Source of the DNA: Hysterium pulicare CBS 123377
Lineage: Eukaryota; Ascomycota; Dothideomycetes; Hysteriales; Hysteriaceae
Assembly: GCA_000467715.1 (NCBI GenBank)
Contig: AJFK01000095.1
Coordinates: forward strand, 122,516 to 186,515
Direction of reading: 5' to 3'
DNA: 64,000 bases
Of the stretch, positions 45,808 to 50,384 are shown piece after piece. Numbering within the stretch: the first letter of the stretch is position 1; every line of letters starts with the position of its first letter. The notes under the pieces were generated by a model. The model saw only the letters and a program-made list of their open reading frames with translations. It was not told where the DNA came from and searched no databases. The position numbers and the translations under genes were made by a program.

Positions 45808-45815
45808 AAAAAAAA
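45808..45815 (-). terminator. Pol III T-run terminator of the tRNA gene
   Basis: Eight A on the plus strand, so eight T on the tRNA strand, start 8 nt after the tRNA 3' end. A second run of 12 follows at 45790-45801. This supports transcription through the interrupted 3' half. Confidence 0.85.
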
Positions 45816-45823
45816 GTAATAAT

Positions 45824-45975
45824 CGCCCGACCTGGGACTCGAACTATGAACGAAATGTTAGCATTTCGTAAGTCTCGGAATTTGAAAATTCCGGGGCGAT
45901 TTTAGTGGGTAATGAACATACCCCAGAGCCTTGAGATTAAAAGTCTCACGCGCTAACCAATTGTGCCAGCCGGGC
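45824..45975 (-). tRNA. tRNA-Lys(UUU) interrupted in the T arm
   Basis: Removing 45844-45921 leaves a 74-nt tRNA. The acceptor GCCCGGC pairs with GTCGGGC (one G-U), with discriminator G. The D arm is GCAC/GCGC with one A-C mismatch. The anticodon arm TGAGA-CTTTTAA-TCTCA gives anticodon UUU. The variable loop is AGGCT. The T stem CTGGG/CCCAG is perfect with loop TTCGAGT. The A box TGGCACAATTGG is intact; the B box GTTCGAGTCC is kept because the insert ends in G. There is no insert at 37/38, where eukaryotic tRNA introns normally sit. A T8 terminator follows. Either an unusual intron-bearing gene or a gene broken by a small insertion. Confidence 0.85.
45844..45921 (-). other. 78-bp intron-like insert at the T-loop boundary
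   Basis: It lies between T-stem base 53 and T-loop base 54. It begins GTATGT, has GCTAAC with the branch-like A at 45858, 14 nt before the 3' end, and ends ATAG, as do mRNA introns in this window. It also carries two perfect 8-bp hairpins: CGGAATTT/AAATTCCG (loop 2) and ACGAAATG/CATTTCGT (loop 4, which contains the branch site). An 8-nt piece, AATCGCCC, is complementary to the tRNA 3' end GGGCGATT. Confidence 0.75.

Positions 45976-46524: not shown

Positions 46525-50384
<3,860 letters not shown>

Follow-up and report, generated by a model that had tools for sequence, protein, structure and literature searches.

The minus strand of the window (the whole stretch of DNA that was analysed, 64,000 nucleotides of contig C80 in the assembly G000) contains a tRNA-Lys(UUU) gene whose two exons are separated by a 78-nt insert. 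This insert lies between nucleotides 53 and 54 and hence away from 37/38, the canonical position of tRNA introns. The features of the gene are as follows.

45824..45975, minus strand: tRNA-Lys(UUU) gene, made up of two exons around a single insert (excision scan, ARAGORN, cloverleaf scan)
45922..45975, minus strand: exon 1, nt 1-53, from the 5' strand of the acceptor stem to the 5' strand of the T stem, 54 nt, ending in CTGGG
45844..45921, minus strand: spliceosomal-type intron between nt 53 and 54, 78 nt (GT-AG ends, best excision, shared class)
45916..45921, minus strand: 5' splice site, GTATGT
45857..45862, minus strand: branch site GCTAAC; 45858 is the presumed branch A, 14 nt from the 3' end
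45844..45845, minus strand: 3' splice site AG (TCATAG)
45824..45843, minus strand: exon 2, comprising the T loop TTCGAGT, the 3' strands of the T stem and the acceptor stem, and nt 73
45957..45968, minus strand: box A, TGGCACAATTGG, uninterrupted
45835..45844, minus strand: box B-like stretch, GTTCGAGTCC, spanning the junction
45808..45815, minus strand: T8 run, resembling a Pol III terminator
45876..45893, minus strand: intron hairpin of 7 bp (folding)
45850..45869, minus strand: intron hairpin of 8 bp, whose loop contains the branch motif CTAA (folding)

The joined 74 nt are recognized by ARAGORN as tRNA-Lys(ttt), and both ARAGORN and the cloverleaf score find a complete cloverleaf with the invariant bases. 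The original prediction, that removal of 78 bp restores a tRNA with a paired T stem, thus holds base for base. Among 335 excisions tried (products of 69 to 77 nt), this one ranks at the top and is unique except for a one-base slide. The minimum-energy fold of the spliced product has four arms, with complete T and anticodon stems; two acceptor bases pair with the D arm instead. The signals originally listed for the insert (GTATGT, a terminal ATAG, and GCTAAC, whose branch A is 14 nt from the 3' end) read the same when the minus strand is read again. The T8 run and both promoter boxes, A and B, which had been described as retained, were all located; the box B-like stretch survives the junction since the last base of the intron is a G.

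Default ARAGORN and Rfam at its gathering threshold report no tRNA within the window, and ARAGORN with introns allowed labels the locus “tRNA-Stop.” A cloverleaf scorer with GT-AG excision of 45 to 80 nt was run on 12 loci and both window strands, 201,564 bases in all. Within its range, which left out wholly uninterrupted tRNA genes and those with a long variable arm, it returned a single insert-bearing gene, tRNA-Lys(UUU), and five tRNA genes that have only a 37/38 intron.

The tRNA gene adjoins a reading frame (46864-49365) for Arg5,6, which is 91% identical to its counterpart in Zopfia rhizophila and 89% identical to those of Lindgomyces and Melanomma. The mannanase encoded at 52.6 kb is closest, among named relatives, to those of Glonium and Lepidopterella (86%), and that of Zopfia shares 73%. 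All of these fungi are Dothideomycetes. As the nearest relative differs between the two proteins, they place the fungus in this class and no lower.

Similar inserts in other tRNA genes

The assembly (37.2 Mb in 596 contigs) was searched with the Rfam tRNA model, which gave 20 matches with 63 of 1,229 candidates scored; B-box patterns were then added and their matches decoded. Forty-three small stretches (20, 20, and 3) were picked by eye from the pattern matches for their tRNA-like 3' ends, and 18 of them contain a resolved tRNA gene. Only one of the patterns contained CTAAC (best 100 of 107 places). Six stretches were taken on that ground, and their single yield, tRNA-Arg(UCG), was found again by a pattern that lacks this motif, so that gene finding, apart from this one pattern, did not ask for a branch site. 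In total, 37 tRNA genes were resolved. This number is a lower bound and includes no gene for Phe, Asn, Pro, initiator Met, Ile-UAU, Thr-AGU, Arg-CCU, or Leu with the anticodon AAG, CAG, or UAG; tRNA-like sequences at four loci (L019, L020, L021 with two places, and L090) were left out of it. At the gathering score, Rfam reported 1 of 11 loci with inserts outside position 37/38 and 1 of 6 loci that have only a 37/38 intron. Loci of the latter kind are thus missed as well, and this failure is not specific to the unusual inserts.

Inserts outside position 37/38 recur in 13 of the 37 resolved genes. They number 19, none of them at 37/38, and occupy the D arm, the anticodon arm, the variable loop, or the T arm. 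The sites below follow standard tRNA numbering, assigned by hand on the cloverleaf.

Lys-UUU: 53/54; no 37/38 intron
Arg-UCG: 20/21 and 53/54; also a 37/38 intron
Gly-CCC no. 2: 53/54; also a 37/38 intron
Gly-UCC: 46/48; also a 37/38 intron
Val-CAC: 11/12 and 24/25; also a 37/38 intron
Arg-ACG: 31/32; no 37/38 intron
Ile-AAU: 21/22; no 37/38 intron
Thr-UGU: 26/27 and 51/52; also a 37/38 intron
Ala-CGC: 25/26; also a 37/38 intron
Trp-CCA: 20/21; also a 37/38 intron
Leu-CAA: 22/23 and 53/54; also a 37/38 intron
Leu-UAA: 20/20a and 25/26; also a 37/38 intron
Cys-GCA: 24/25 and 47/48; also a 37/38 intron

The 53/54 site of the Lys gene is shared with Arg-UCG, Gly-CCC no. 2, and Leu-CAA. Ten of the 13 genes, all but Lys, Arg-ACG, and Ile, additionally contain an ordinary 37/38 intron of 11 to 32 nt. 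Such introns are present in 28 of the 37 resolved genes, including 18 of the 24 that have no insert elsewhere. This makes at least 19 introns of this kind, spread over at least 13 tRNA genes in a single dothideomycete. The original prediction, that a live tRNA gene carries an intron of mRNA type, finds its strongest support in the 18 further inserts of this kind in 12 other tRNA genes. Sites beyond nucleotide 53 are under-sampled, as the search patterns need an intact T loop. A Pol III constraint on the choice of sites was considered, as 18 of the 19 fall in the range from nucleotide 20 to 53, for which a uniform model gives p = 1.4e-5; it was given little weight.

Several individual loci deserve a description. 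The tRNA-Leu(UAA) gene (L110, G000:C369:4050-4380) contains two unusual introns and a 37/38 intron, i.e., three in all, and the exon between the two unusual ones is 7 nt long. The tRNA-Val(CAC) gene (L086, G000:C160:43400-43750) also has three introns. The first of these interrupts box A between nt 11 and 12; judged by eye, the GTAAGT at the 5' end of this intron partly rebuilds a box A-like sequence. The first intron of tRNA-Leu(CAA), in the D loop (L124, G000:C581:118540-118870), contains a T6 run, which might stop Pol III early. The tRNA-like sequences L090 (G000:C493:13780-14120) and L019 (G000:C95) have good acceptor arms, and a single excision leaves their anticodon arms unformed; they may be decayed genes or carriers of an unfamiliar type of intron. 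The stretches L083 and L085 (G000:C52:9970-10330 and C121:1500-1870) share the B-box-like sequence GTGGGTTCGATTCCCGCACCTACCCCCAAG, possibly as parts of a tRNA-derived repeat. In L084 (G000:C81:31870-32250), tRNA-like ends flank a stretch with an internal repeat, in which CATAGGCTGGTAGGTCAGTCAC occurs twice; this could be a SINE-like element or a decayed tRNA.

Splice signals and alternative explanations

All 19 inserts begin with GT and end with AG, six of them having been placed by eye with these ends in mind. Those six, from Leu-UAA, Leu-CAA, and Cys, lie outside a blind excision test that covered the other 13 inserts in 10 genes. With the remaining introns of each gene taken out first and products of 69 to 77 nt allowed, scoring by tRNA structure alone put the GT-AG excision among the best of 335 in 13 of 13 cases, with 2 to 17 ties that each included one GT-AG solution. 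The motif GTNNGT is found in 18 of the 19 inserts, compared to 7.0% of background GT-AG segments from the same genome (p = 2.7e-20), and CTAAY is found in 16, compared to 1.6% of the background (p = 2.3e-26). The presumed branch A is located 14 nt from the 3' end in the Lys intron and 9 to 13 nt from it in the other 15 introns with CTAAY. The strict motif is absent from the first intron of Thr, the intron of Ala, and the first intron of Cys, where weaker motifs can be seen by eye, and the pyrimidine before the AG is missing in two of the 19 introns, both in Leu-UAA.

The mRNA introns of the window serve as a comparison. Six were predicted ab initio with GTNNGT and CTRAY required and with the length (42 to 114 nt) and branch distance (6 to 30 nt) left free, so that only their length and distance count; these are 48 to 60 nt and 10 to 12 nt, respectively. 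Protein alignment located three more, of 65, 47, and 69 nt with branch distances of 15, 10, and 17 nt; these begin with GTATGT, GTGAGT, and GTGAGC. The nine placeable mRNA introns thus span 47 to 69 nt, and the tRNA inserts other than that of Lys span 47 to 57 nt. The branch distance is wider in the protein-supported introns (10 to 17 nt) than in the tRNA set (9 to 14 nt), which counts against the likeness. In both length and branch distance, the tRNA introns fall toward the lower end of what the host introns show. Avoidance of T runs was examined as a further feature of the set (no run exceeds T4 in 18 of the 19 introns, and T5 occurs in 3 of the 9 mRNA introns) and was dropped, as the numbers are too small.

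The position of these inserts brings to mind the non-canonical tRNA introns of archaea and some algae, which a Sen-type endonuclease cuts out before a tRNA ligase seals the exons; the GT, CTAAC, and AG would then be incidental. A passage of the tRNAscan-SE 2.0 paper (PMC8450103) describes such introns in archaea, at scattered sites and up to three per gene, as is seen here. The archaeal introns, however, are marked by a bulge-helix-bulge and processed by the endonuclease, whereas the fungal inserts carry spliceosomal signals, in which GTNNGT and CTAAY far exceed the background. The ten 37/38 introns of the same genes, an internal control, do not combine these motifs with GT-AG ends: none of the ten has such ends, and one has CTRAY. 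The lengths of the unusual inserts also resemble those of local mRNA introns. A home-made bulge-helix-bulge score averaged 3.82 for the unusual introns and 3.10 for the 37/38 introns, and did not mark even the latter, so that it favors neither side. On the sequence signals and lengths, removal by a Sen-type endonuclease appears very improbable.

Another explanation holds that the tRNA genes are dead, having been struck by small insertions. In its favor, the Lys intron differs from the others in being structured, which a recently inserted sequence could also be, and Ile-AAU and Gly-CCC each have a second gene that contains no unusual intron. Against this, ARAGORN accepts the spliced products of all 13 genes as tRNAs of the isotype expected from the anticodon, an assessment that, like the cloverleaf score, concerns form and not function. 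Moreover, splice signals are not expected in a random insertion. Another intact tRNA-Lys(UUU), the outcome that the original prediction had named as pointing to a dead gene, was sought and not found within the 596-contig assembly. Exact matches to the Lys pattern come from two genes only, tRNA-Lys(CUU) and the split tRNA-Lys(UUU), and none of the three places with a single mismatch can be read as a tRNA; this search extended to one mismatch, so that a more diverged copy could escape it. The spliced Trp gene, whose amino acid has a single anticodon, matches only its own locus in BLAST. For nine further isoacceptors of the 13, a second gene is absent among the 37 resolved genes, without a one-by-one search, and most isoacceptors were seen only once in that sample. 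The failure to detect a second Lys(UUU) or Trp gene makes it unlikely that these genes are dead, and the explanation by insertion into dead genes is hardly tenable.

Spliceosomal introns normally reside in Pol II transcripts, and the tRNA genes could be read by Pol II within longer RNAs from which the tRNAs are processed out later. The internal promoters, however, are largely preserved. The box A pattern is uninterrupted in 11 of the 13 genes, and by eye also in Cys, with Val split at 11/12. A box B-like stretch is found in all 13, although the search patterns required the B box and mostly also a T run, so that this evidence is not independent for all genes. The T8 run 3' of the Lys gene likewise speaks against Pol II transcription, for which there seems to be very little room. 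Not all Pol III genes are affected by the inserts, as 5S rRNA has seven full-length matches on seven different contigs (47 of 1,863 candidates scored).

The Lys intron stands apart within the set. It is the longest of the 19 (78 nt) and the most strongly structured, with a z-score of -3.18 for the fold of the whole intron. Only the unusual intron of Trp (-2.60) and the first intron of Thr (-2.31) stand out besides it, and structure was therefore dropped as a feature of the set. Either the Lys intron is young, or its own structure helps to bring the splice signals together. In the predicted fold of the unspliced Lys transcript, 15 of 51 pairs link exon with intron bases, and such pairing might hinder splicing.

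As to origin, recent mobile introner-like elements might have entered the tRNA genes, with the Lys intron as the youngest copy, which would be compatible with spliceosomal removal. Such elements have been described in fungi (van der Burgt 2012, listed in the references of PMC11889510) and could supply new GT-AG introns, and the stable hairpins of the Lys intron would fit this origin. Introner-like elements are expected to have many near-identical copies, however, and no repeated family is seen among the 19. BLAST at E <= 0.001 matches the Lys gene nowhere else in the genome; this search skips common words, and distant copies could escape it. A shared ancestry of the 19 introns was rejected, as their interiors are no more alike than shuffled ones (best pair, 16.0; mean of the shuffled maximum, 17.8). 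Among the 18 introns other than that of Lys, the lowest fold z-score is -2.60, and 13 are within 1 of zero in either direction. An introner origin is thus unlikely.

On the preferred reading, tRNA-Lys(UUU) is very probably a working Pol III gene whose insert is a U2-type spliceosomal intron, one of a genome-wide set, that the spliceosome removes.

Proposed maturation pathway and significance

What was observed directly is the anatomy of the gene, the exact excision, the splice signals, their recurrence, the resemblance to mRNA introns nearby, and the failure to detect another Lys(UUU) or Trp gene; transcription of these tRNA genes, spliceosomal removal of the introns, and the order of the steps are inferred. 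Pol III would transcribe the whole gene from the retained boxes A and B and stop in the T run. The spliceosome would recognize GUAUGU, GCUAAC, and AG, the 78 nt would leave as a lariat, and nucleotide 53 would be joined to nucleotide 54. The T arm and the body of tRNA-Lys would be able to fold only after this removal. In the ten genes with a 37/38 intron, the Sen endonuclease and the ligase would act too, most likely after the spliceosome, because the Sen endonuclease reads the folded tRNA body. An exon between two unusual introns can measure only 7 nt, as in Leu-UAA, or 12 nt, as in Val. Exons of this size are hard to reconcile with exon definition, and intron definition, by which fungal splicing proceeds, would fit better.

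Spliceosomal introns are known from other noncoding RNA genes. As described in part of PMC8917221, the U6 snRNA gene of Schizosaccharomyces pombe has an intron that the spliceosome removes from a Pol III transcript. U6, however, is an snRNA and itself a part of the spliceosome, whereas the genes described here encode tRNAs and make up about a third of those found. Short spliceosomal introns also interrupt structural RNA genes in the nuclear rDNA of ascomycetes, among them Cladonia grayi and other fungi, for which passages of PMC8527467, on lichen fungi, and PMC11889510 provide the precedent. Those are repeated genes transcribed by Pol I, in contrast to Pol III tRNA genes with most isoacceptors seen once. 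The canonical 37/38 introns, removed by the Sen endonuclease, likewise interrupt tRNA genes and co-occur with the unusual introns in 10 of the 13 but differ in their site, their length of 11 to 32 nt, and the lack of GT-AG ends.

The cited part of the tRNAscan-SE 2.0 paper (PMC8450103) describes eukaryotic tRNA genes as having no more than a single intron, whereas up to three introns per gene are found here. According to a passage of a 2026 review (PMC13149111), the spliceosome plays no part in tRNA splicing. The matches listed for open-licence PubMed Central, outside which lie preprints and most subscription journals, include no report of spliceosomal introns in tRNA genes. The novelty is thus a known kind of intron in a class of genes where such introns are thought not to occur.

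If confirmed, these introns would break both rules, that tRNA splicing does without the spliceosome and that a tRNA gene has one intron at most. They would imply that the spliceosome handles short, highly structured Pol III transcripts with exons down to 7 nt, and they would offer a natural system for the study of how introns are gained outside mRNA. Annotation of fungal tRNAs may miss genes. It is likely that the spliceosome of this fungal lineage now serves as an enzyme of tRNA maturation, that a third of the tRNA genes found, among them isoacceptors with no second gene detected, yield a functional tRNA only with its help, many of them needing both splicing machines in order, and that translation of AAA, UGG, and other codons depends directly on it. 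Decoding capacity would then be tied to splicing capacity.
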